DNA of 22,050 nt, taken from positions 1 to 22,050 of IMG/VR virus record IMGVR_UViG_3300025674_000457; one strand, given 5' to 3'. A model generated the notes under the pieces. The model saw only the letters and a list, made by a program, of their open reading frames with translations. It did not search any database and was not told the origin of the DNA. Origin of the DNA: a virus. A program made the position numbers and the translations under genes. Positions within the stretch are counted from its first letter, which is position 1; the number at the start of each line of letters is the position of its first letter. Below, one piece after another: positions 4,639-15,771 of the stretch.

Positions 4639-4704
4639 ATTATAATTTAGCAGGGAATGATACCTGGAATGTGTTAATTTACTAGCTTTTATTGAACTAG
4701 TCAA
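4639..4704 (-). promoter_or_regulatory. Possible promoter in the largest intergenic gap
   Basis: The 73-base gap before the 750-residue protein gene holds two sigma-70-like signals on the minus strand. TTGACT at 4704-4699 is followed after 17 bases by TAAATT at 4681-4676, a weak -35/-10 pair. Separately, a perfect TATAAT lies at 4644-4639 but lacks a recognisable -35 at standard spacing. A weak ACTAG/CTAGT inverted repeat (4681-4685 and 4697-4701) overlaps the first pair. In DNA this AT-rich such matches occur by chance, so the call rests mainly on this being the only sizeable gap. Confidence 0.25.
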
Positions 4705-5593
4705 TCTTTTTAGTAAAGCTTAAATCATCCATCAAACGACCTGTAAACTTATATTCACCTACATGGGTAATATAATCATCAACTAAAATATGGCATTTAC
4801 CATCTATTTCGGCCCATCTTTTACAGAAACCAAAATCCTCTCCATAATACCTTTTAGTCTCAGGTTCATGATAAGTATCAAAGAAATTATAGAAGTATTT
4901 TTTCTCTACCTGTTTACCATTGATAATGGTAGGTTGACTTATTTTTTTATCTGGAAAAGCTTTAATCATCTTTTCAAACACTTGTTTTTTAATCAGCATA
5001 CAGCCTGTTGGTGCATGAGATACTTCAGCTACACCATTTATAACTTGTATCTCACTTCTATCTTCTATTTTAACTGGCCAAGTAAAACCGTGATGAGACA
5101 TAGTTTTACCATCTTCAATATTTCTAGTTTTGGTTCTATGGGCTACTTTGTCCCAATCAATGTGCTTTAAAGGATAAGGAGCAGCTATTAATTCTTTATC
5201 AGCAACTACCATTTTCATTATAGTTTTGAATGAAAATTCAATATCCGAATCTATAAATAAAAAATGTGTATATGGTACTTTTTCACATTCTTCTAAAAAA
5301 TTAGATACTGATAGGTTTCGTCCTTGAGTAACTAATGAAGATTTCAATAATGAAAAAGAAACTAATATTCCTGACTGCATACACTCTTGTTGAAATTTTA
5401 ATAGTGATTGAGTGTAATGAATAGAACATTGATCATGTACTGGTGTGGCTACAAATATAACAGGTTTTTTATTAACTGCGTTATTTATAACTGGTTTATT
5501 TATCCAGATAGGTTTAGTTGGATCTTGCACGTTTGTATTTAACTCCTTTATAGTTTGATAAGTATCTTCATTTCCCCATACTTTGTCTTGCAT
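4697..5593 (-). CDS. Putative GT-A type glycosyltransferase
   Basis: This 298-residue protein has GT-A glycosyltransferase features. After an N-terminal extension, a core strand (KKPVIFVATPV, 42-52) starts the nucleotide-sugar fold. QGRNLSVSNFL (90-100) is followed by FLFIDSDIEF (111-120), whose DSD (115-117) fits the metal-binding DxD. Later come TGCMLIKK (196-203), GEDFGFCKRW (251-260) with a candidate catalytic acidic pair, and a His at 277 that could be a metal ligand. Family knowledge predicts transfer of a sugar from a nucleotide-sugar donor; donor and acceptor are unknown. It overlaps the upstream glycosyltransferase gene by 26 bases and has a GGAG ribosome binding site 7 bases before its ATG, so the two are likely co-translated. 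Confidence 0.75.
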   Translation of the reverse strand: MQDKVWGNEDTYQTIKELNTNVQDPTKPIWINKPVINNAVNKKPVIFVATPVHDQCSIHYTQSLLKFQQECMQSGILVSFSLLKSSLVTQGRNLSVSNFLEECEKVPYTHFLFIDSDIEFSFKTIMKMVVADKELIAAPYPLKHIDWDKVAHRTKTRNIEDGKTMSHHGFTWPVKIEDRSEIQVINGVAEVSHAPTGCMLIKKQVFEKMIKAFPDKKISQPTIINGKQVEKKYFYNFFDTYHEPETKRYYGEDFGFCKRWAEIDGKCHILVDDYITHVGEYKFTGRLMDDLSFTKKID

Positions 5594-6512
5594 CTAAAGC
5601 TCCTTGTAAAAATCTAGTCCAAGCATTACCTTGCTTATTCCAATTATAATATTGATTCACATAATCTATTTGAAATTGTAAATGTTTCTTAACACCTTCT
5701 GAATTTAATCTAGAAGCTGCTGCTTCAATAGCATATGCAAAATTATTTGCTAAATTTAAATAATTTTTTTGATACGGAATATAAGAACTAAATTCAGCAC
5801 AAGTTTCATATAAAGCTCCAAAGTTTGTGGTAATTATATAACAGCCTGCAGCCATTGCTTCTAATGCTGATATACAAAATGTTTCTTCCCATATATTTGG
5901 GTAAGCGAATATATGATATTTATGTAGATTTTCTTTTATATATTCATTAGGTTTATATCCTATGTAATTTACATTAGGTAATTGTTTTGCCTGTTCATAT
6001 AACTCTTGATAATGTTTATCATTAGCATCTTTAAAAGATTGACCATATACTTCAGTAGAAGAATAAACATCTAATTCGATATTAGGATTTTTAATATATT
6101 GCATAGTAGCTAACATAACATTTAATCCTCTCCATGGTGTTGGATGGAATATAAGTTTTATTTTATCTACTGGTTTATTTAAATCTCTAGAAGGTATATT
6201 ATCTACACCATTTTTTATAACTAAACATTTTTCAGTTGGTATATCAAATACCATTCTAAATTTTTCAAAATTCCAATGGCTATTAAATATATACCAATCA
6301 TATTTATGATGATTAGATTTATCTTTAAACCATGGTGCTAAATTACCTTGATCGTAAGAATTCTTTTGCCATAGAATATTCATTTTTGTTGGATGTAGTG
6401 GAATCTTTTCAGGTACGGATGTACATATTTGTACTTGATCCAATAACTTTGAATCAACATATTTTCTTAAATATTCAAACTGTAACTCGGTACCACCTCG
6501 TGGTGCTTGCAT
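5568..6512 (-). CDS. Glycosyltransferase, GT-B fold (GT4-like)
   Basis: This 314-residue protein looks like a GT4-type glycosyltransferase. The N-terminus enters directly at the glycine loop (RGGTE, 5-9). NGVD (101-104) precedes the second domain, IFHPTPWRGL (121-130) supplies a likely phosphate-contacting Arg at 128, and the EX7E motif is present as E210 and E218 within a TFCISALEAMAAG stretch. These features predict transfer of a sugar from a nucleotide-sugar donor with a GT-B fold. The protein is short for the family because there is little sequence before the glycine loop. It partners the overlapping GT-A gene downstream. The acceptor is unknown; a phage virion protein or host surface glycan are the obvious candidates. 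Confidence 0.85.
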   Translation of the reverse strand: MQAPRGGTELQFEYLRKYVDSKLLDQVQICTSVPEKIPLHPTKMNILWQKNSYDQGNLAPWFKDKSNHHKYDWYIFNSHWNFEKFRMVFDIPTEKCLVIKNGVDNIPSRDLNKPVDKIKLIFHPTPWRGLNVMLATMQYIKNPNIELDVYSSTEVYGQSFKDANDKHYQELYEQAKQLPNVNYIGYKPNEYIKENLHKYHIFAYPNIWEETFCISALEAMAAGCYIITTNFGALYETCAEFSSYIPYQKNYLNLANNFAYAIEAAASRLNSEGVKKHLQFQIDYVNQYYNWNKQGNAWTRFLQGALDARQSMGK

Positions 6513-7034: not shown

Positions 7035-7198
7035 TAGCTAAAAAACCAGTTTTTACGATCTTCTTCATTTCGAAGATCTTGTTGATATCCAAAGTTAAGT
7101 TCATTTTTTAAAGTATCTAAACCATCTCGTAATTGCCTTTGGTTGGTTTCTTGATATTCAGGAGTTGGTTCAGGAATAATTGCAGTAATCTTTGCCAT
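7034..7198 (-). CDS. Very small hypothetical protein (54 aa) after the nozzle gene
   Basis: A 54-residue frame (starts MAKITAIIPEPTPEYQETNQ, ends DRKNWFFS) exactly fills the space between the nozzle gene and the 111-residue gene. Both of its ends use one-base TAATG overlaps: its ATG shares a base with the nozzle gene's TAA, and its own TAA shares a base with the next ATG. Leaving it out would create an unexplained 163-base hole in an otherwise gapless array. It is hydrophilic and probably helical. The function is unknown; position suggests a small tail-associated or scaffolding protein. Confidence 0.7.
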   Translation of the reverse strand: MAKITAIIPEPTPEYQETNQRQLRDGLDTLKNELNFGYQQDLRNEEDRKNWFFS

Positions 7199-9141
7199 TA
7201 TCTTCTACCTCCAGCTTGAATATCTAATCTCAAAGTTCCATATCTCCAAGATTGATTAACTGCATCATTTTCTATTTTTAAACTTACTTGTCTTCCTCTA
7301 ACTCTTGTACTATGAAAAGTTGTAGTAGTATTACATGTAAATGGACCAGTAATCAAGGGACCATTAGAATCTGATTGTTCTGTTTGACCTGGATAGTTTC
7401 TAAAAAACATAGTAACTTTTGCATTGCCAGATAAATTTTTAAAGTCGGGTATAAATCTAGATACTCTCATAATGTTTTCTCCATCTCCTGCAATCCCTTG
7501 TTGTGCAGATATATCATAATCACCTGATTGGATATAAGATGTAATAGCTGTTGATACTCCATTTGCATCTACTTCATTCACTCCAGTTTCATGAGCCCAA
7601 AATTTAGATGAGCCATAAGTATTTGTCACACCATTAATAGTTGGGAAACTTGGTGTGCCATTAGTTGTAAACTGTGAAGCATAAGGTAATGCGTAAGTAT
7701 GGTTATCTGAATATGCAGTTCTAGATAAAGAACCTGTTGTCCAGGTATTTTCTAAAAAATTAAATACAACATTTCTATTTATTTGTTGAGAACCCGATGC
7801 TGCATAGAACCAACCCACTTCATTATATAAAGAGTTGTGATACCCATATGCAATTTGATTTGCATCTGCATTATATCCTAAATTATCTCCTTGTGTTGTA
7901 AATACAAAATCTTCAACTAATGATGGGAGTTGTTTAACCGTACCATCAAACATAAAAAAGCCTCCACCAAATCCCATCCAGAAAACCGCTCCTTGTGCAT
8001 ACACTGCTGCATGTTGACCTAAACATCCACAGTTAGAACCTACTTGTCTAATACTAAATGTAAAAGGTGAACCCACAAACTGTATTTGATAAGCTGCTTG
8101 ATCCGTGAGTACTAATATATAATCCTTACCTTGAACTGCAGTTATAATTTCATTACCTTGGTCAATTAAAAATGTACCTGCAGTATTAGTTGCTGTAGGT
8201 TGCCATGTATTAATATCTTCTTGATTAGAGAATCTTATAAACATTTTGTTTTGAGAAGTTGAATCTGATAAGTTATCTAAAGTTCCCATTAAAAATAAAT
8301 GTCTATCTCTATCAGAAACTAAACTCATTAAAGATGTTGTGGGAGCTCCTGATACAATTGATGCTCTAGTTTCCAATGCTCCAGAACCTGAAGGACTCCA
8401 GGTATAAGTTGCACCATTTCTAACAGTTGCAACTAGCAACTGGCCGTAATTATCGAGTGACCAGGAGCCAGGATCTAATTGAACGTTAGTTGTTGAAGCA
8501 GCATCGCCCCAACCCTGACCTGCTGCAGCCCAAACATCCACACCCCAACCATATGCTGGTGTTTGAAACACTGGGCCAATTGTAATATATGAATTTAAAG
8601 TTGCTGAACCTTGAGTTGACATACCTGTGCCGGTTTCATTTGATGGCATGGTAATTGTAAAAGTATTTCCTGTAGGTACTGAAATAATTTCAAATACATT
8701 CGTTGTAAAATCTGCTGTGGTATATCCAGTTACTCCACCGCCAGGTAAAGTAACGGATTTAAATTTAAAATAATCACCAACAGATAAACCATGTGAAGTT
8801 AAATTAACTGTTACTGTCGCTGAACCTGTTGTTGAATCAAAAGTACATCCTGTTTGATCTGCATTAATAGGTGTAATATCATAAAAACCACCTTCATAAT
8901 AAATAACTAAAATTTTAGCAGTACCTAAAGCTGCATATTTTCTTCCTTGTAAATCTGTCCAAGTATGTTGATTTCTGACAGGTCCTGATAATGTATTATT
9001 AACTAGTTCTTGCCAACCACCTATTTTTTCGGGTTGGCCATATCTAAAACGTACATTATCTCCATCTACCCATTGCCCTTCGGCACCGGTTTCTGTAGCT
9101 TGTTTATTAAAACCTGGCTTAAATTGTATTTTTTGCAGCAT
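7198..9141 (-). CDS. Tail hub/nozzle protein, P22 gp10-like / T7 gp12-like
   Basis: This 647-residue protein opens with FKPGFNKQATETGAEGQWVD (7-26) and then a GDNVRFRYGQPEKIGGWQ stretch, the N-terminal signature I associate with podovirus tail nozzle or 'packaged DNA stabilisation' proteins. The rest is beta-rich with many Gly, Thr and aromatic residues, as expected for the propeller-bearing nozzle that forms the lower tail tube. Length fits that family (roughly 500-800 residues). The gene resumes the structural module directly after the accessory island, and its start lies 23 bases inside the end of the nucleotidyltransferase gene. It would act in the mature virion as a gate for DNA exit. 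Confidence 0.75.
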   Translation of the reverse strand: MLQKIQFKPGFNKQATETGAEGQWVDGDNVRFRYGQPEKIGGWQELVNNTLSGPVRNQHTWTDLQGRKYAALGTAKILVIYYEGGFYDITPINADQTGCTFDSTTGSATVTVNLTSHGLSVGDYFKFKSVTLPGGGVTGYTTADFTTNVFEIISVPTGNTFTITMPSNETGTGMSTQGSATLNSYITIGPVFQTPAYGWGVDVWAAAGQGWGDAASTTNVQLDPGSWSLDNYGQLLVATVRNGATYTWSPSGSGALETRASIVSGAPTTSLMSLVSDRDRHLFLMGTLDNLSDSTSQNKMFIRFSNQEDINTWQPTATNTAGTFLIDQGNEIITAVQGKDYILVLTDQAAYQIQFVGSPFTFSIRQVGSNCGCLGQHAAVYAQGAVFWMGFGGGFFMFDGTVKQLPSLVEDFVFTTQGDNLGYNADANQIAYGYHNSLYNEVGWFYAASGSQQINRNVVFNFLENTWTTGSLSRTAYSDNHTYALPYASQFTTNGTPSFPTINGVTNTYGSSKFWAHETGVNEVDANGVSTAITSYIQSGDYDISAQQGIAGDGENIMRVSRFIPDFKNLSGNAKVTMFFRNYPGQTEQSDSNGPLITGPFTCNTTTTFHSTRVRGRQVSLKIENDAVNQSWRYGTLRLDIQAGGRR

Positions 9142-9478
9142 TCAACTTCCTTATTTTTGTAGCAGAAATAGCCTGTATTTTATCAGGTAATACTATTTCT
9201 TCAACCTTATATCCTACGTCTCTACCATAGCATATATTGGTTATATTTGGAACTTGAATTATTTCAAATTTTCCTTTGTATTCTCGTAAGGCATACTTAA
9301 TTTTTTCTTTAACTTGCTCAAAATCATAAGGATTGTTTTCAGATATAGGCATTGATCTAACCATAATAATTACTTGCCCTGTCTTTTCTAAAGATTTTTT
9401 AAACAATTCTTGATGTCCTTGATGCCAAGGTTGCCATCTTCCTAACATCAATGCTGTCGGTTTATCCCAATCTATCAC
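9119..9478 (-). CDS. Small HxGH-motif nucleotidyltransferase (ATP-sulfurylase-like or NMN adenylyltransferase-like)
   Basis: This 119-residue protein has a clear nucleotidylyl transferase fold signature: GRWQPWHQGH (13-22), with the HxGH histidines at 19 and 22, and a C-terminal ISATKIR (104-110) matching the ISxTxxR nucleotide-binding motif of this superfamily. Such enzymes transfer AMP or CMP from a nucleotide triphosphate to an acceptor. Candidates are sulfate (ATP sulfurylase activity), nicotinamide mononucleotide, or a sugar or polyol phosphate. It overlaps the APS-kinase-like gene by 17 bases, and sulfotransferase genes lie in the same island, so sulfate activation is attractive. However, the protein is far shorter than true ATP sulfurylases, and the NENPF-like segment (ISENNPYDF, 45-53) also resembles NMN adenylyltransferases. 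Substrate is unresolved. Confidence 0.75.
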   Translation of the reverse strand: MIDWDKPTALMLGRWQPWHQGHQELFKKSLEKTGQVIIMVRSMPISENNPYDFEQVKEKIKYALREYKGKFEIIQVPNITNICYGRDVGYKVEEIVLPDKIQAISATKIRKLNAAKNTI

Positions 9479-9851
9479 GAAGTTCCTTTATAATTTTATC
9501 ATAATCATAGTCATCTATAATGTAATTTGGGTTTAAAGGTCTTTCAAATATTTGATTGGTGTCTTCATATCTTCCAGATTCAATAGTATTCATCCAAATT
9601 GTAATATCATAATATTTTCTATAGTCATCAAAAGGACATATAAAATCTACTACACAATTTTTAGTTGTTAGTTTAGTTAACCTTTCCATTCGAATTGCTT
9701 GTCTAGTTCTAGCAGCTGGAGCAAAATCCCAATCACTAAATATAGTTCTTATTTCATCAGCATTAAAATAAGCAACATTTAAATCTTTACATAATTTTTT
9801 AGCAAAGGTTGTTTTTCCAGATCCAGGTAATCCATATATTAATATATTCAT
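9462..9851 (-). CDS. Miniature APS-kinase-like P-loop kinase
   Basis: This 129-residue protein begins with a Walker A motif, GLPGSGKT (7-14). FNADEIR (29-35) sits where APS kinases carry their DGDN.R substrate loop. VDFICPFDDYR (68-78) resembles the F-I-S-P-x-x-x-x-R segment of APS kinases, and ERPLNPNYII (103-112) resembles their conserved E-x-P-x-x-P stretch. APS kinase phosphorylates adenylyl sulfate to PAPS, the donor for sulfotransferases, two of which are encoded 3 to 5 kb upstream in the same array. The protein is markedly shorter than usual (about 170-200 residues) and I do not see the canonical KGLYxKA lid motif. A different small-molecule kinase remains possible. Its ATG shares one base with the previous stop. 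Confidence 0.7.
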   Translation of the reverse strand: MNILIYGLPGSGKTTFAKKLCKDLNVAYFNADEIRTIFSDWDFAPAARTRQAIRMERLTKLTTKNCVVDFICPFDDYRKYYDITIWMNTIESGRYEDTNQIFERPLNPNYIIDDYDYDKIIKELRDRLG

Positions 9852-10384
9852 TATGGATAAAAATTAAAATTAATAACTATTCTACAGTTTTTATCAGTGC
9901 AGCTTGTTCCTGAATGAGGAGTATTTGCATCAAAAAAAACTATTTTATTTTCTTCACTGTTTACTTTTGTCTTACCTATTTTAGTGTAACCATTACAAGT
10001 ATTTATATAATATACAGCAGTGACCATGCCTTTTAAACTTGTTTGAGATCTATGAATTTTATCTATTGTCCCTATTTCAATATTATCAGCTATATTAAAA
10101 TCTGTATGTTCTCCATGTACACAAATTTTATTTGTTTTTGTCAATAAGTTAGCTTTAATTCTAACAATTGAAGTAGGTTTTATTTTATCTATAATAGGGA
10201 CTAAATCATCAACGTGTTCTGATTTAGGAGAATATTCATCATAAAAAGTATGAACAAGTTGAAAATGACCGTCATCATATCTTGTAACTCCTTCAACAAA
10301 AGTCCAGTTAAATAAGTGACTAGTCATTTTATTTTTAAGTGCACTAAATTGTTCGTAAGGTAAAAAATTTTTTATAATCTTCAT
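9851..10384 (-). CDS. 2-oxoglutarate/Fe(II)-dependent oxygenase, HxD type
   Basis: This 177-residue protein has the double-stranded beta-helix signature of 2OG/Fe(II) oxygenases. GEHTDF supplies H93 and D95, FFDANTPHSG supplies the distal H157, and R168 in CRIVINFNF is the likely 2-oxoglutarate salt-bridge residue. The MKIIKNFLPYEQF start is typical of prolyl-hydroxylase-like members. The predicted reaction is hydroxylation of a protein or small-molecule substrate with decarboxylation of 2-oxoglutarate to succinate. It overlaps the upstream oxygenase gene by four bases (ATGA) and the kinase gene by one. The substrate is unknown. It is one of six such proteins in the island. Confidence 0.8.
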   Translation of the reverse strand: MKIIKNFLPYEQFSALKNKMTSHLFNWTFVEGVTRYDDGHFQLVHTFYDEYSPKSEHVDDLVPIIDKIKPTSIVRIKANLLTKTNKICVHGEHTDFNIADNIEIGTIDKIHRSQTSLKGMVTAVYYINTCNGYTKIGKTKVNSEENKIVFFDANTPHSGTSCTDKNCRIVINFNFYP

Positions 10385-10929
10385 ATTTTTATATTGTCAC
10401 TTTTTACAAAATTTAAATTTAAAGAGAAAATAGATTTTCTATTATTACTTTTATTAATAGGTGATCTATGTAAAAGATAAGATGGAAATATTATAAAATC
10501 ACCTTCTTTTAATTTTGTTGTTTTTAAAATAGATTTTGTTTTATAATCTAGTATCTCTGTTTTCATATTAGAATCTTTTAACTCTAGGTAATATACACTA
10601 CTGTAATTACAGTCTGGATGCGTGTGCCAATCATGAAAATTATTTTTTGTGTATTGTTGAAACCAAGATTTTATAATTCTTACATGCTCACAATAAAAAA
10701 ACTTAGCTGTTTCTAATAAATAAGGTGTTAACATTTTATATAAAGTATCTACATATTCTCTTTTAGTATTACTATCTATATTCCAATCAGTCTTATAAAT
10801 ATTTTGATGTTGTTGATCTATTTTTGATTTAGGTGTTTGTTCAATTAAAGATAATAATTTTTCTTTATATTGATTGTGCTCTTTAACATGATGCACAAAA
10901 TAGTAACTATTTATATCTTTTATAATCAT
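10381..10929 (-). CDS. 2OG-Fe(II) oxygenase-like protein, HxH type
   Basis: This 182-residue protein shows WHTHPDCNYSSVYYLEL (101-117), then GDFIIFPSYLLHRSP (143-157) and RKSIFSLNLNF (164-174). Candidate metal ligands are H102 with H104, and H154, with R164 for 2-oxoglutarate. The arrangement matches the putative 2OG-Fe(II) oxygenase family seen in many marine phages (PF13759-like), in which HxH stands where classical enzymes have HxD/E. The fold is predicted to be a jelly-roll. It is flanked by two more oxygenase genes with ATGA overlaps at both ends. The substrate is unknown. Confidence 0.75.
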   Translation of the reverse strand: MIIKDINSYYFVHHVKEHNQYKEKLLSLIEQTPKSKIDQQHQNIYKTDWNIDSNTKREYVDTLYKMLTPYLLETAKFFYCEHVRIIKSWFQQYTKNNFHDWHTHPDCNYSSVYYLELKDSNMKTEILDYKTKSILKTTKLKEGDFIIFPSYLLHRSPINKSNNRKSIFSLNLNFVKSDNIKI

Positions 10930-11516
10930 TTATCATTCACATAGGATAGCGCTGACATATCTCCAAAACTTTCAAAAATAAAAGTATTAAAAGATAAACT
11001 AAACCTTACTAATTCCGTATGGTTTACAGGAACCTGATGTTGTATATTTGATGGAAACAATATTAACTCTCCATCTTTAATTTCAAATAACATATTAGAG
11101 TAATTATAAGGAGTATTTTTTCCAGAAAATATAATCTGTTTTTTATCACTAGTAGAAAAAACAATAGGACATCCAGTTCCCTCTACTTTAAAATAGAATA
11201 CGCCGCTAAGAATACTATTTGGGTGATAGTGAGGATGATGCTCAGAACCTTTATTATTTTGATTACACCAAGACTGCGTAATTTTTAAATTATGAGACAC
11301 ACCTAAAACTTCTTTAGAATAATTTTTAATTGATTCATCAAAAAAAGTTTTTAGTTTTTTTAATTTTTTATTACTTAAAATAAAAGAATCTTGACTTTTA
11401 TAATTGGAAACATTTTTAATGTATTCAACTGATTGAATATATTTAAATTCTTTATCAAAATTATCTTGATATCTAAAGACTCCAACCGTAGTTGGAAACA
11501 TATTTATAAGTTCCAT
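10926..11516 (-). CDS. 2OG-Fe(II) oxygenase-like protein, HxH type
   Basis: This 196-residue protein carries EHHPHYHPNSILSGVFYF (92-109), LILFPSNIQHQVP (151-163) and VRFSLSFN (170-177). H96 and H98 (or neighbouring His 93/94), H160 and R171 are the candidate iron and 2-oxoglutarate residues. The 'HPNS-LSG-FYF' and 'FPSNIQHQV' strands are hallmarks of the PF13759-like putative 2OG-Fe(II) oxygenases. The N-terminal MELINMFPTTVGVF start is also typical of that family ('FPtpv' opening). It begins a run of three consecutive oxygenase genes with four-base overlaps. The substrate is unknown. Confidence 0.8.
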   Translation of the reverse strand: MELINMFPTTVGVFRYQDNFDKEFKYIQSVEYIKNVSNYKSQDSFILSNKKLKKLKTFFDESIKNYSKEVLGVSHNLKITQSWCNQNNKGSEHHPHYHPNSILSGVFYFKVEGTGCPIVFSTSDKKQIIFSGKNTPYNYSNMLFEIKDGELILFPSNIQHQVPVNHTELVRFSLSFNTFIFESFGDMSALSYVNDK

Positions 11517-11522
11517 ACTTTC

Positions 11523-11864
11523 TTAGTAGGTACAAATATTATCTGTGTTTTCCTCCGGATGTATTGTGTACCAAATTTTTTTAGCAGCTTGATTCCAGTT
11601 AAAAGGAACTGGAGTATCAGGAGCATCCCCTAGTGGATTTCCTGGTTGTGTTTCATCAGCTGGCATTAAAGTTTGTAAATGAGTTTCTATATCTGCAATA
11701 GAAGTTAATTCACCATCTCCATTATTTGATGGATTGTCTACCGATAAACCTATCGCAGGTCTAGTATTTTGATCTAATAATCTAACGTCTTGAAAAAAAG
11801 TTTTTTCTATATAATCAGGCGCTTCATTACCTGTCATAGTGAATTTAAGTATTTTCTTTGCCAT
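11523..11864 (-). CDS. Hypothetical protein within the accessory island
   Basis: This 113-residue acidic protein belongs to no family I recognise. It begins MAKKILKFTMTGNEAPDYIE, has an Asn/Asp/Pro-rich centre (residues 45-90) and ends with an aromatic-containing tail (AAKKIWYTIHPEENTD, about 93-108). No metal-binding or nucleotide-binding motif is clear. Its start lies 20 bases inside the end of the coiled-coil gene upstream, so the two are likely expressed together. It could be a small partner of that protein. Confidence 0.55.
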   Translation of the reverse strand: MAKKILKFTMTGNEAPDYIEKTFFQDVRLLDQNTRPAIGLSVDNPSNNGDGELTSIADIETHLQTLMPADETQPGNPLGDAPDTPVPFNWNQAAKKIWYTIHPEENTDNICTY

Positions 11865-12732
11865 TTTTTTTACCTGTGTTTTTAGTAGCTAAAGAAGACT
11901 TATCCATTATATTAAAGTTTTTATTTTTAACATTTAAAATAACGTCATCTTTAAAAATGTTATAACATTTCTCTAAAAATTGTAAAGTCATCTTTTGAGT
12001 AGGATATTTGCCTTCTTTTAATAATTCTTCCTCTTGTATTAAATAGTCTGTCAAAAGGGTTTGAGCAGTAGCTCCATTTACACCAATATCAAAAAGGTAT
12101 ATATAATTACCTTCATCTATTCTACCTCCACTTGCTCTGGCTGCATGTAAGGCTTGTTTCATAGCAGTATATATATGATGTTTTATTTCTCCTTTTTCAT
12201 ACTCTTCTTCAGTAATATCTTTTTTACCTAAATTTTTTAATAAAGTTTCATATTGATTAGTAAAAAAATTTAACTTTCTAATCCCACCTCTAATGTATTT
12301 CATAGCATTTTTATTACCTACTTCCATATGAAGTATCCTTGCTTCTAACATTTCTTTTTCTAAATCATCTTTAGTTTCAAGTAATTTTCTTCTTCTTTGA
12401 TTAATCATAATCTCAGTCTTTTTTATATTTAACATACCTTCTTCAATACCGTTTTTAGTTTGTTCTATTTCTGCAAGAAGACCATACATTTGTCTCTCAG
12501 GGGTAAGGTAAGTTACATCAACACTAACTTCCATAAACTGAGATTTAGCCTTATAAAAATTTTCTAAAGTTTTTGAAATAGCAGGCATTTTTTTATTGAT
12601 ATTTTTTATCATGCCTTTGTACTGTTTACTAACTTGAGGAAGATGTGTTTGAATATCTTTAATAACTAAATCAGAAGAATGTTCTTGATTAGATAGTAAA
12701 TTACTTACTGATTTATTTTTCTTTTTACTCAT
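11845..12732 (-). CDS. Coiled-coil protein of unknown function within the island
   Basis: This 295-residue, Lys/Glu-rich protein has a long predicted coiled coil at about residues 79-170 (heptad-like stretches such as LLAEIEQTKNGIEEGMLNIK). A non-coiled, conserved-looking segment follows, ASGGRIDEGNYIYLFDIGVN (200-219), and then a short helical tail that is Lys/Asn-rich. I recall the 'GGxIDEGNxIYLFxxGxNG' segment from other marine phages, where it is also uncharacterised. The gene overlaps the second sulfotransferase gene by 8 bases and the small acidic gene by 20. It may be a scaffold or structural protein rather than an enzyme; function unknown. Confidence 0.6.
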   Translation of the reverse strand: MSKKKNKSVSNLLSNQEHSSDLVIKDIQTHLPQVSKQYKGMIKNINKKMPAISKTLENFYKAKSQFMEVSVDVTYLTPERQMYGLLAEIEQTKNGIEEGMLNIKKTEIMINQRRRKLLETKDDLEKEMLEARILHMEVGNKNAMKYIRGGIRKLNFFTNQYETLLKNLGKKDITEEEYEKGEIKHHIYTAMKQALHAARASGGRIDEGNYIYLFDIGVNGATAQTLLTDYLIQEEELLKEGKYPTQKMTLQFLEKCYNIFKDDVILNVKNKNFNIMDKSSLATKNTGKKNGKENT

Positions 12733-13321
12733 CGGTTATAACCTTTCCTAATTGCCAATACCAAAACTTATTACTTTTTAAAATTTGTTGATATATAAAA
12801 TAATCTATTTCAAGGTATTTTTCAAGAGATGTTTTAAAATTAATATTGTTATTAATAAATTTATTTATTTTATTTTTAATAGTTGAAGATCCTTTATTTT
12901 CGTGAAACACGGTATTAAAATTAATTTTTAAAAAATCATTTAAATCTTCATGTTTCACAAACATATTAACCTTACTGCCTATTAAATAAGTAGATTGTAA
13001 TATAGTTAAAGGAATTAAAGATATAGATCTTAATTCAAAATCAATGGTATTAAACAATAATTGTTTTAAATTTAATTTATTCAAATCTATATTTGAAATA
13101 GATAGATTATGAGCAAGTCCAGATACAAATCTTTCTTTAGGATCTCTAAAAATGGTCCAACAAAACTTACCACTTTGTAAATTTTGATTCATGGTCCAAT
13201 TAATTTTTTTATTTTCTAAAGTCTTAAATACAGACTGACAACCTGTTTTATGTATTAATAAATATTCAAAATTTTTAGTTTCTATAAATTCTAAATTTTG
13301 AACAAACATATTATTTTTCAA
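12725..13321 (-). CDS. Sulfotransferase-like protein (carbohydrate sulfotransferase type)
   Basis: This 198-residue protein has two hallmarks of the membrane-type carbohydrate sulfotransferase superfamily. IHKTGCQS (23-30) stands where these enzymes have the K-x-x-x-T/S PAPS 5'-phosphosulfate loop, and FRDPKERFVSG (58-68) matches the R-D-P-x-x-R-x-x-S 3'-phosphate-binding motif. Predicted role: transfer of a sulfo group from PAPS to a hydroxyl on a glycan or protein. The C-terminal half is Asn/Lys/Ile-rich and more diverged. No membrane anchor is evident. It overlaps an oxygenase gene upstream by 11 bases, and the PAPS-producing candidates lie downstream in the same array. Confidence 0.7.
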   Translation of the reverse strand: MKNNMFVQNLEFIETKNFEYLLIHKTGCQSVFKTLENKKINWTMNQNLQSGKFCWTIFRDPKERFVSGLAHNLSISNIDLNKLNLKQLLFNTIDFELRSISLIPLTILQSTYLIGSKVNMFVKHEDLNDFLKINFNTVFHENKGSSTIKNKINKFINNNINFKTSLEKYLEIDYFIYQQILKSNKFWYWQLGKVITDE

Positions 13322-13781
13322 AACTTTTAAAAGCTAAAGTCACTCTTGGAGTATTTATTTCTTTAGGTGCTCTACCTCTATGTTTCTTTTTAGCATCAAA
13401 AATAACTAGTCTATTAGCAACAAAATCTATTTTATTTATTTTATCTGTCTTAATCTCAAACTGCCCAGAACCTTTAGACAAGGTAGGAGAAATCATAACT
13501 AACGCTGTTTTAGTTCCAGGATCCACATGCCAATCTCCATCCATACCATTAAACTGCATATTTGTATAACAACCTTCAAATTCTTTAAAATCTGTATGAG
13601 GTAAAATTTTTTTAGCTATAAAATTTAAAGTGGGATCTTTAACATTTAAAGAAGCAATAAAAAATGTATTACCATTTTCGTCAACAGAAGTTTGAGAATA
13701 TTTGTAATTAGCTTCATAAATCAATAAATCTTGAATATGATTAAAAAAATCTAATTCTAAAAAATTATCTATAATCTTCAT
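13311..13781 (-). CDS. 2-oxoglutarate/Fe(II)-dependent oxygenase, HxD type
   Basis: This compact 156-residue protein has a classical 2OG-Fe(II) oxygenase signature: DWHVDPG with H85 and D87, VIFDAKKKHRG with H134, and PRVTLAFK with R146. The MKIIDNFLELDFFN opening is shared with other prolyl-hydroxylase-like phage proteins and with the HxD oxygenase downstream at 9851-10384. Predicted reaction: hydroxylation coupled to 2-oxoglutarate decarboxylation; substrate unknown. Its start overlaps the upstream gene by four bases (ATGA) and its end overlaps the second sulfotransferase gene by 11, so it sits directly between two candidate modification enzymes. Confidence 0.8.
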   Translation of the reverse strand: MKIIDNFLELDFFNHIQDLLIYEANYKYSQTSVDENGNTFFIASLNVKDPTLNFIAKKILPHTDFKEFEGCYTNMQFNGMDGDWHVDPGTKTALVMISPTLSKGSGQFEIKTDKINKIDFVANRLVIFDAKKKHRGRAPKEINTPRVTLAFKSFEK

Positions 13782-14446
13782 ACAATTCTATGACATGTTC
13801 CAATAGGAAAATAAGGAGCGACAATTTCTTGAAAAAATATAACCATCGTTAATCTTTCTTCTTCATCAGTACCGTAACCATCTGCAGCGTGCCATTGAGC
13901 GGCATCAAAAGAAATAGCTCTGTTATAAATTCCTTTAAAAGTTGTAGTTTTTTCAAATTGATCATTACTCTCTTTTAAAGCATTAACATGTTCTTTAGAC
14001 ACGTTTTTATTTCCATAAAGTAAAGAGGAGTTCCATTCGCCATGTAATTCTTCTGCAAATAATTTTTTAGGTCTATATATAGAAGTTCCTTTTGTACAAT
14101 TTTTCGATAAATAAATTATTGATGAAAGCATGTTTGGTATATCTCTATGTACCCATCCAGTATTTATTTCTTCATTAAATTTTTCTATTTTTTGAAAATA
14201 ACTTGCCGCTTGAAAATGTATAATTTGATTAGAGAAAGCGGTGGTTCTAAAAGGATAATACATACTTAAAACTTTCATACAAACGTAGTTATGAAAAGTA
14301 GGGTTTAAAATATGCAAACTTTCAGTTCTTTCTCCAGGCCAATAGTCACCTTTAGTTTTCCTTTTATATTTTAACGTTGAAGCATAATTTTTAACTTCAT
14401 CAGGTCTATCAAAAAAATTATCTATACACAAAGATGGAAAATTCAT
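13778..14446 (-). CDS. DUF6445-like 2OG-Fe(II) oxygenase-related protein
   Basis: This 222-residue protein shows WVHRDIPNMLSSIIYLS (98-114), with H100 and D102 as an HxD pair, then ISFDAAQWHAADGYG (178-192) with H186, and ERLTMVIFF (197-205) with R198. This is the pattern of the DUF6445-type, 2OG-Fe(II) oxygenase-like family, and includes the 'GTSIYRP' strand (120-126). The start is set by a GGAG Shine-Dalgarno sequence 8 bases before the ATG, lying in the end of the upstream sulfotransferase gene; the stop and start are directly abutting (TAAATG). The substrate is unknown. Confidence 0.7.
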   Translation of the reverse strand: MNFPSLCIDNFFDRPDEVKNYASTLKYKRKTKGDYWPGERTESLHILNPTFHNYVCMKVLSMYYPFRTTAFSNQIIHFQAASYFQKIEKFNEEINTGWVHRDIPNMLSSIIYLSKNCTKGTSIYRPKKLFAEELHGEWNSSLLYGNKNVSKEHVNALKESNDQFEKTTTFKGIYNRAISFDAAQWHAADGYGTDEEERLTMVIFFQEIVAPYFPIGTCHRIV

Positions 14447-15226
14447 TTACAAAGCTCCTTTTTTAAAAGCCGTAATAATAGATTCTTCCAATACTTTAGA
14501 TGCATATTTTTTAACAGGTTTTATTTTTTTATCTATTTTATATAGATTCTTGCCTAATAAAAAATTATTGTAAGAAATATTATTTGGTTTGAAGTCTTTT
14601 AAATTATTAAAATCGTGTTTAAAACTTTTTATATTTAAAAAATGATATATTTTATTTATTTCTTTATCTGGATTTTTAGTTAAATCATAAAAATTTATAA
14701 ATAAAGAATTTTTGTTTTCTTTTTCTTTTAGATAACTTATCACATTCCATTCAGTTTTTATAAAACCTTCATCACTCATCATAAATTTACATTTATAAAA
14801 ATCGTTAGTTAATTGTTCAATTTGATTTAAATATGCAGTAGGTTCTTTTTTAGACCATTTAATTAAAGAAGCTAATACTTCTAAAATATCTCTTTCTAAT
14901 ACGATAAATTTTATTTTTCTATCTGGATAATACTCTCTTAATCTTAAAATAATATCAGGACTTAAGGTCGTTCTTTGAATAATATATTTAGCTTTCCAAT
15001 CTTTATAATAAAGATCAATACAATTTTTTATAATATTATTGATAGAATTATGATCAGGATAACTTACAAATATTTCTGATAATTTATAATCTACTAATTG
15101 ATTAAATAAAGGACTTATAAAATTATGAGAGGTTACCTCTACTTCTTTATTTTGTTGAAATATAGATCCAAGTAATGAATGACCTGATCTTGGTAATCCG
15201 ACTAAAAATATTAAATCTCTTTTCAT
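14447..15226 (-). CDS. PAPS-dependent sulfotransferase family protein
   Basis: This 259-residue protein has both PAPS-binding motifs of the sulfotransferase superfamily. The 5'-phosphosulfate loop is VGLPRSGHSLLGSIF (9-23), and the 3'-phosphate-binding segment is FIVLERDILEVLASLIKW (107-124), with R112 and S120 as expected contacts. Predicted role: transfer of a sulfo group from PAPS to a hydroxyl or amine acceptor. The length is normal for bacterial and phage sulfotransferases. The sequence is strikingly AT-rich, with Lys, Ile and Asn-heavy content. The start overlaps the upstream oxygenase gene by four bases (ATGA). The acceptor is unknown. Confidence 0.85.
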   Translation of the reverse strand: MKRDLIFLVGLPRSGHSLLGSIFQQNKEVEVTSHNFISPLFNQLVDYKLSEIFVSYPDHNSINNIIKNCIDLYYKDWKAKYIIQRTTLSPDIILRLREYYPDRKIKFIVLERDILEVLASLIKWSKKEPTAYLNQIEQLTNDFYKCKFMMSDEGFIKTEWNVISYLKEKENKNSLFINFYDLTKNPDKEINKIYHFLNIKSFKHDFNNLKDFKPNNISYNNFLLGKNLYKIDKKIKPVKKYASKVLEESIITAFKKGAL

Positions 15227-15771
15227 ATATTTTTTGAACTTTTAAAATTTCTACTAAGAATGTCCCAATTCCAAACCATAGAAATTCTTTCTTTTTCTTT
15301 GATTGGATTAACCCAGTGAGTTAAATAACCTGGAAAAGTTAAAATTAAACCTTCCTCAATTTCAAATACACCTGCTTCTGTTCTAAAAGGTTCGCCTTTA
15401 GAGAAGTATAATGTAGAAGAAAATTCAGCGCTACCATGTACATGTTCTTGTACATAATGACCTTTATTTAAAATATTACCCCATGCAGCCATGATTCTCA
15501 TTTCATATAATGAAGAATTTTCATGACTTATATTATTTGCTGAAAACATTCCGGGTAAAAATTTTTTATTAATAAAATCTAAAAACTTTTCATCTTTTAA
15601 AAAAGAATCAAATAAACTCATTTGACCTTTTACATTGGTTACAAAATTATTTGCACCTACGTCTTTTTTTATTTTGTTTTTAAAATAATTTAAAAGTTTT
15701 TTATCATCAATAAATGATTTATAAATTTCTATTTTTTTATTAATTACAAAACCGTGCTTTTCTACTTTCAT
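15223..15771 (-). CDS. 2OG-Fe(II) oxygenase-like protein, HxH type; first gene of the island
   Basis: This 182-residue protein shows EHVHGSAEFSSTLYF (109-123), GLILTFPGYLTHWVNP (141-156) and ERISMVWNWD (161-170). Candidate residues are H110 with H112, H152 and R162. The layout matches the PF13759-like putative 2OG-Fe(II) oxygenases, with HxH in place of HxD/E. It is the first gene of the accessory island, preceded by a 41-base gap containing two small hairpins, and its ATG has no visible Shine-Dalgarno sequence, unlike the structural genes just upstream. Predicted reaction: oxygenation with 2-oxoglutarate; substrate unknown. Confidence 0.75.
   Translation of the reverse strand: MKVEKHGFVINKKIEIYKSFIDDKKLLNYFKNKIKKDVGANNFVTNVKGQMSLFDSFLKDEKFLDFINKKFLPGMFSANNISHENSSLYEMRIMAAWGNILNKGHYVQEHVHGSAEFSSTLYFSKGEPFRTEAGVFEIEEGLILTFPGYLTHWVNPIKEKERISMVWNWDILSRNFKSSKNI

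Follow-up and report, generated by a model that had tools for sequence, protein, structure and literature searches.

The SAR11 bacteria possess the AprAB route for sulfite and most of them are without ATP sulfurylase, as reported in a 2023 paper (PMC10356861). Pelagibacter AprBA is also treated in PMC2211403, and the role of phage sulfotransferases is called unclear in PMC10580990. Here we describe a viral locus that touches both subjects. The window, by which we mean the whole stretch of DNA analyzed (22,050 bases, virus record IMGVR_UViG_3300025674_000457), has all the long open reading frames (ORFs) of the region on its minus strand. They include genes for a shortened adenosine 5'-phosphosulfate (APS) kinase of 129 residues (kin, 9462-9851), a 119-residue HxGH adenylyltransferase proposed as a non-orthologous ATP sulfurylase (nt, 9119-9478), a sulfotransferase dependent on 3'-phosphoadenosine 5'-phosphosulfate (PAPS) (st1, 14447-15226) and a probable second sulfotransferase (st2, 12725-13321). 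We consider there to be a good probability that kin and nt form a minimal sulfate-activation module feeding the phage sulfotransferases, and that the same family works with AprBA in SAR11. The pathway is known; what would be new is the enzyme type for one step and its carrier. Among the papers listed by a literature search, whose coverage was without most subscription papers and all preprints, none described the kin-nt pair or such a sulfurylase.

The four ORFs from which the original prediction proposed a phage-encoded system of sulfate activation and transfer are all present and are conserved genes. The ORFs of kin and nt overlap by 17 nucleotides, and a ribosome-binding-like GGAA (9483-9486, minus strand) lies within the end of kin, 4 nucleotides ahead of the GTG start of nt. 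These are not chance ORFs, since across the 76 kin and 78 nt sequences aligned the catalytic motifs vary little or not at all. The closest described phage protein is phrog_10255, a 230-residue "kinase" whose two halves are matched by kin (positions 2-102, E 2e-20) and nt (positions 124-226, E 2e-26); it is annotated just as a kinase with no sulfate role stated, whereas the window has two overlapping genes.

The order of its motifs and its predicted fold mark kin as a shortened descendant of the APS kinases, in agreement with its earlier description as an APS-kinase-like protein. It reaches the Pfam APS_kinase family (PF01583) at 24.5 bits (gathering cut-off 21.1), with four general AAA models scoring slightly higher, and falls below the NCBIfam equivalog apsK TIGR00455 (23.4 vs 138.7 bits). 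For both SAR11 kin proteins that were scanned APS_kinase is the top family, at 42.5 and 32.0 bits. The kin alignment has 27 invariant columns. When its profile was compared with solved structures, ranks 1-2 were giant multi-domain chains matched via repeated P-loops, and the next three matches (residues 3-80), the best single-domain ones, were APS kinases (E 1.4e-6 to 1.8e-6); L-seryl-tRNA(Sec) kinases appeared just at E 0.007. The predicted model of kin (pLDDT 90.9, pTM 0.86) has APS kinases or their domains in Foldseek rows 1-18. In VIA, the top 30 rows (Z 15.6 to 12.8) consist of APS kinases and of larger chains matched through an APS-kinase domain; next comes gluconate kinase, whose Z of 12.3 is so close to 12.8 that the border rows are tied. 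The fold and the P-loop are shared with CysC and the kinase domain of PAPS synthetase, and alignment to a CysC domain from the same order of bacteria shows the motifs in the same succession, with NADxxR for DGDxxR, FxCP for FISP and FExP for YExP and with the R of DRxxN kept. From this alignment, F43 and F95 may correspond to the adenine clamp of APS kinases.

The assignment of nt to the HxGH nucleotidyltransferases was upheld (PF01467, 24.2 bits, cut-off 21). By homology, as read from sequence, nt is not a known sulfurylase, being nearest to the NadM and phosphopantetheine adenylyltransferase (PPAT) types and not to Sat or CysDN. Its H19-x-G21-H22 motif is invariant in the 78 aligned sequences, as are R14, Q16, P17, R41, N49, P50, N78, Y84 and G85, and the family has a strongly conserved stretch of its own, NITNICYGRxVGY. 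The sulfate-binding motif of Sat, QxRN, is missing, and GRWQPxH stands in its place. Sat (PF01747 with PUA_2) thus shares with nt the HxGH motif and the proposed reaction, whereas nt is about one-third the size of Sat. Canonical Sat is absent from the 50 Foldseek and VIA matches listed for nt, which excludes nothing. CysDN is an unrelated enzyme type that shares the proposed role. The closest solved sequence is MJ0541, a NadM-type nicotinamide mononucleotide adenylyltransferase (NMNAT) on the same scaffold, which differs in length (168 vs 119 residues) and in gene neighborhood. The predicted model of nt (pLDDT 89, pTM 0.81) is equally near PPAT (Z 11.4) and NMNAT (Z 10.7), and nt has both the NadM fold and the motif GRxQPFHxGH. 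Its best three scores against NadM-type NCBIfam models are 35.4, 33.9 and 32.6 bits, where the cut-offs are 397, 127 and 181.

The reading of the 14447-15226 product as a PAPS-binding sulfotransferase is borne out by matches to PF00685 (45.3 bits, cut-off 22) and PF13469 (38.2 bits, cut-off 27). In an alignment of 26 sequences, including that of the window, hand-picked from 79 phage hits, R13, G15, R112 and S120 of its PAPS motifs are kept in 25, 26, 25 and 26 sequences, respectively. The same reading of st2, which starts at TTG, stands less firmly: nothing in Pfam matches st2 at E<=10, and a viral scan for its relatives returned only its own near-identical contig. The sole distant relative found (32% identity, in L101, where it is the second gene after a kin-nt pair) has the motifs PKNGSTS and REPxDRxxSG and matches PF03567 (Sulfotransfer_2) at E 0.013, with 16.1 bits against a cut-off of 22. 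Since that match is sub-threshold, st2 is likely, and not proven, to be a second sulfotransferase.

The original prediction proposed surveying related phages, and the survey gave 169 viral loci with 167 kin genes in 49 clusters at 80% identity, using kin and nt profiles from separate alignments. Cluster counts are the safer, because one contig is represented repeatedly among the loci (and two loci yield two rows each). In 46 of 49 clusters nt adjoins kin or is fused with it, the two forming one ORF in 23. Where the gene directly upstream of kin is known (46 clusters), it codes for a sulfotransferase in 10, against 1.2 expected from gene numbers and hence far above chance; by locus the figures are 77 of 156 against 8.1. 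Three such upstream genes were scanned and all exceed Pfam sulfotransferase cut-offs. Within three genes of kin, a sulfotransferase occurs in 14 of 49 clusters. In five loci (L027, L032, L034, L075 and L096) the order sulfotransferase-kin-nt is kept though inverted relative to the tail-region gene. The neighbor scans covered 90 of 111 phage genes. Some phages have about 460-510 nucleotides between kin and nt, space for another gene (L004:4773-5236, L050:4132-4639).

Gene context in cellular genomes, the strongest contextual evidence, favors a role of nt as a non-orthologous ATP sulfurylase. In L125, a contig titled Pelagibacteraceae, genes for a TP_methylase, sulfite reductase, CysH, kin and nt are consecutive, kin-nt closing the operon in the post-cysH position as a point in common with CysDN, and two contigs titled Alphaproteobacteria (L145 and L162) have matching gene sizes. 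In the genome of L145 (G023, 948,353 bases), tblastn with CysD, two Sat and CysC from the SAR11 order returned nothing at E<=1e-4 and there is no PF01747 match; CysNC gave three matches only, at 24-28% identity, in an assembly that may be incomplete. The same genome matched four L125 proteins, CysH, sulfite reductase, kin and nt, at 81-91%. Two Pelagibacterales contigs (L275:3631-6945 and L276:5543-9357) carry canonical sulfation islands of CysC, Sat and a sulfotransferase, that of L275 being just below cut-off. In L154, titled Euryarchaeota, a sulfotransferase (80 bits) directly precedes a fused kin-nt gene, followed by more genes. In the nt tree, which rests on few columns and interleaves SAR11 with phage rows, L154 is placed among these rows. 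These islands and L154 indicate that the phage trio follows a scheme also found in cells, with another sulfurylase.

An nt-alignment scan of the genome collection gave at least 579 relatives. Among the best 80 of these, 77 are titled Pelagibacter, Pelagibacteraceae or Pelagibacterales, and 46 have apr genes after nt (44 with aprM, aprB and aprA), usually followed by a TauE-like gene. The apr labels were given by similarity to L135, in which aprA scores 998 and aprB 188 bits; both genes of L135 and of L261 are above equivalog cut-offs. Neighbor scans covered 62 of 104 genome genes. The 147 Pelagibacterales genomes include 110 with nt, 108 with aprA over cut-off, 101 with both and 30 with neither (Fisher p 8e-17, uncorrected for kinship, as are all these association counts). 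The nt count omits one weak hit (E 9e-4), and the kin count of 99 omits 16 genomes with weak P-loop hits alone. Sat occurs in six of the 147 genomes and in five of the 108 with aprA. The nine genomes with CysD have neither nt nor an aprA over cut-off, so that CysD and nt are never found together. Where nt lies within 3 kb of aprA, two arrangements were seen. Seven genomes have the two on the same strand, none of them with kin. A further 31, all with kin, have them on opposite strands with a gap of 372-644, convergent in the two that were read (L261 and L263). Among the remaining 72 genomes with nt, kin is present in 67 and aprA lies elsewhere in 63. At E<=1e-15, a 398-genome phylum sample had nt just in the SAR11 center itself and in one other alphaproteobacterium; 142 genomes sampled from the class yielded seven matches at E<=1e-3, of which four were strong.

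Two side observations concern these SAR11 loci. A conserved 116-residue gene follows aprA in both arrangements (L261:6963-7310, L135:13599-13946); that of L261 matches nothing in Pfam (E<=0.01) or NCBIfam (E<=1e-10). In L172 (6737-14643), kin-nt is clustered with Rieske oxygenase, M24-family, HalD-like and SBP56 genes, and parts of this cluster recur elsewhere.

nt has APS reductase and assimilatory sulfate reduction genes as its cellular neighbors, and the proposed combination of activation and transfer is supported. From homology, motifs, predicted fold, neighborhoods and co-occurrence we infer the reactions, their direction and the acceptor as follows. nt would convert ATP and sulfate to APS, as a third type of ATP sulfurylase on a NadM/PPAT-like scaffold, and kin would phosphorylate APS at its 3' position to give PAPS. 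The PAPS made in the phage may then be used by st1, and probably st2, to sulfate an acceptor, perhaps a glycan or part of the virion. In SAR11 the same family, together with AprBA, would release sulfate and ATP from the APS made by sulfite oxidation. The argument that the host lacks PAPS and the phage supplies it, which the original prediction raised conditionally for a SAR11-like host without assimilatory sulfate reduction, is rejected as stated because kin and nt occur together in 98 of the 147 Pelagibacterales genomes; as most of those sampled have the pair themselves, the phage copies a host pathway.

Several observations weigh against the assignment of kin and nt to sulfate activation. 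kin is without most of the APS-kinase substrate segment KGLYxxARxGxIxxFTGI (the deletion takes most of KGLYxxARxGxI, and GR and F/Y-EDTN are left), and Gln replaces a conserved APS-kinase Asn. nt is below the gathering score of the ATP sulfurylase family PF01747 (15.4 vs 24.3 bits), and its nearest solved homologs, by sequence and by fold, are NMN adenylyltransferases and PPATs; the nearest characterized ones make NAD or CoA. The genome of L162 (G030) also carries a canonical Sat, elsewhere in the genome. The CysH proteins of L125, L145 and L162 have CC and CxxC, which we take to mark the APS-reducing type; if they do reduce APS, nt alone suffices and kin would serve another need. Nine of the 147 genomes have nt without aprA over cut-off and seven the reverse, and in L140 (9980-11497) and L159 (8853-10370) nt is kept while aprMBA is missing between it and the TauE-like gene.

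Others bear on the link to sulfotransfer. The st1 gene of the window is not adjacent to kin but 4.6 kb away. PF13469 matches are missing in 28 of 36 virus records tested, and six of the eight positive ones had been picked for having one, which leaves 2 of 30. Three cultured-phage records that were viewed have no sulfotransferase match. In one of these, the cultured Stenotrophomonas phage Bhz60 (L102:7553-8729), the gene directly before a fused kin-nt gene is annotated as having a NADAR domain, which suggests another use of the pair. The kin-PF13469 association is weak in the 147 genomes (59/99 vs 21/48, p 0.08). Dependence of kin on a sulfotransferase in SAR11 was thus not adopted. A sulfotransferase as an obligatory partner of kin-nt was rejected, most fused kin-nt records tested being without a detected one. 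Because many phages have kin-nt and no detected sulfotransferase, sulfotransfer is not the sole use of the pair, and in those phages whatever it makes must be put to other use or depend on enzymes of the host.

The neighbor in Bhz60 and the NadM-type NMNAT and PPAT relatives of nt together favor a different pair, in which a NadM- or CoaD-like nucleotide adenylyltransferase (nt) and a nucleoside or dephospho-CoA-like kinase (kin) would make NAD or CoA. The two-domain NadR proteins are a parallel for such a kinase/adenylyltransferase pair in NAD synthesis. A firm grouping with NMN adenylyltransferases was also an outcome named in the original prediction as counting against it, and here the result is divided: nt is nearest to them by sequence but remains far below their family cut-offs, at 22-35 bits against the best NadM-type models (cut-offs 127 to 449). 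Moreover, the first stretch of the HMMER match between nt and MJ0541 stops at residue 74, an insignificant one resuming at 107, and the fold and motifs of kin are those of APS kinase. The recurrent neighbors of nt are APS reductase genes, or CysH and sulfite reductase in L125. Finally, nt is missing in 37 of the 147 Pelagibacterales genomes, whereas NadD-type matches occur in 145 (94 above cut-off), and nt is therefore unlikely to be the cell's NAD enzyme. We regard the NAD or CoA explanation as improbable.

It is also quite improbable that nt handles APS otherwise than as an ATP sulfurylase, for example by adenylylating phosphate or some other acceptor at the expense of APS, in which case it would serve sulfite oxidation only and phage kin would use host APS. 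The seven genomes in which nt lies beside the apr genes without kin fit this, being a setting in which APS is consumed. However, the operon of L125, L145 and L162 requires APS synthesis, and no second sulfurylase turned up in the 948 kb of G023; HxGH enzymes, moreover, use nucleoside triphosphates and pyrophosphate as substrates. That the pair activates a non-sulfur compound for glycan decoration and lies near sulfotransferases through shared glycan-gene islands is very unlikely, for although 90 neighbor genes from sulfotransferase-free loci include epimerases, glycosyltransferases and S-adenosylmethionine synthetases (two to three members each), the apr and cysH neighborhoods and the exclusion of CysD are left unexplained.

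The remainder of the AT-rich block at about 9-16 kb of the window is made up of oxygenase-related genes and a DUF6445 gene, all on the minus strand. Three 2-oxoglutarate (2OG)-Fe(II) oxygenase genes assigned to phrog_81 exceed the PF13759 cut-off: 10381-10929 (40.6 bits), 10926-11516 (68.9 bits) and 15223-15771 (38.8 bits), the last directly upstream of st1. Two phrog_274 genes have sub-threshold oxygenase matches; one adjoins kin (9851-10384; PF13640, 23.5 bits, cut-off 27) and the other lies between st2 and st1 (13311-13781), the phrog label being DNA endonuclease V. The DUF6445 gene (13778-14446; PF20043, 51.8 bits) also lies between st2 and st1 and belongs to phrog_1644, labeled minor coat protein. 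The oxygenase genes share the sulfotransferase block (9851-15771), and the Pelagibacter phage HTVC023P has such genes there without kin-nt.

The structural (stabilization or tail) gene at 7198-9141 (minus strand), with full-length identities of 55.9% to HTVC023P and 53.2% to HTVC027P, groups the virus by sequence with these Pelagibacter phages. In HTVC023P, too, 2OG oxygenase genes precede this gene, and nearly the same small genes and a glycosyltransferase follow it. Unlike the window, HTVC023P is not among the records matching kin or nt and has no annotated sulfotransferase in the 20 kb viewed, and two genes of the window (4697-6512, minus strand) replace its glycosyltransferase region, the one at 5568-6512 having weak glycosyltransferase matches. 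The host of HTVC023P is Ca. Pelagibacter HTCC1062, and that of our virus is likely, though not proven, to be SAR11-like.

Taken as a whole, it is reasonably probable that nt, with its roughly 120 residues, represents a third kind of ATP sulfurylase that evolved independently and, with the reduced APS kinase, makes up a miniature PAPS synthase. It would be the main sulfate-activating and sulfite-finishing enzyme of SAR11, filling the gap of AprBA without Sat, and would be carried by phages with sulfotransferases to sulfate host or virion glycans. nt offers a concrete small candidate for the ATP sulfurylase reported missing from SAR11, and the question of the missing enzyme is therefore directly testable. 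If the proposal is true, a third solution to sulfate activation would stand beside Sat and CysDN, and the scoring of sulfur metabolism in marine metagenomes would change, as Sat and CysD models miss nt. Phage sulfotransferases, in turn, would be supplied with a donor produced by the same virus.

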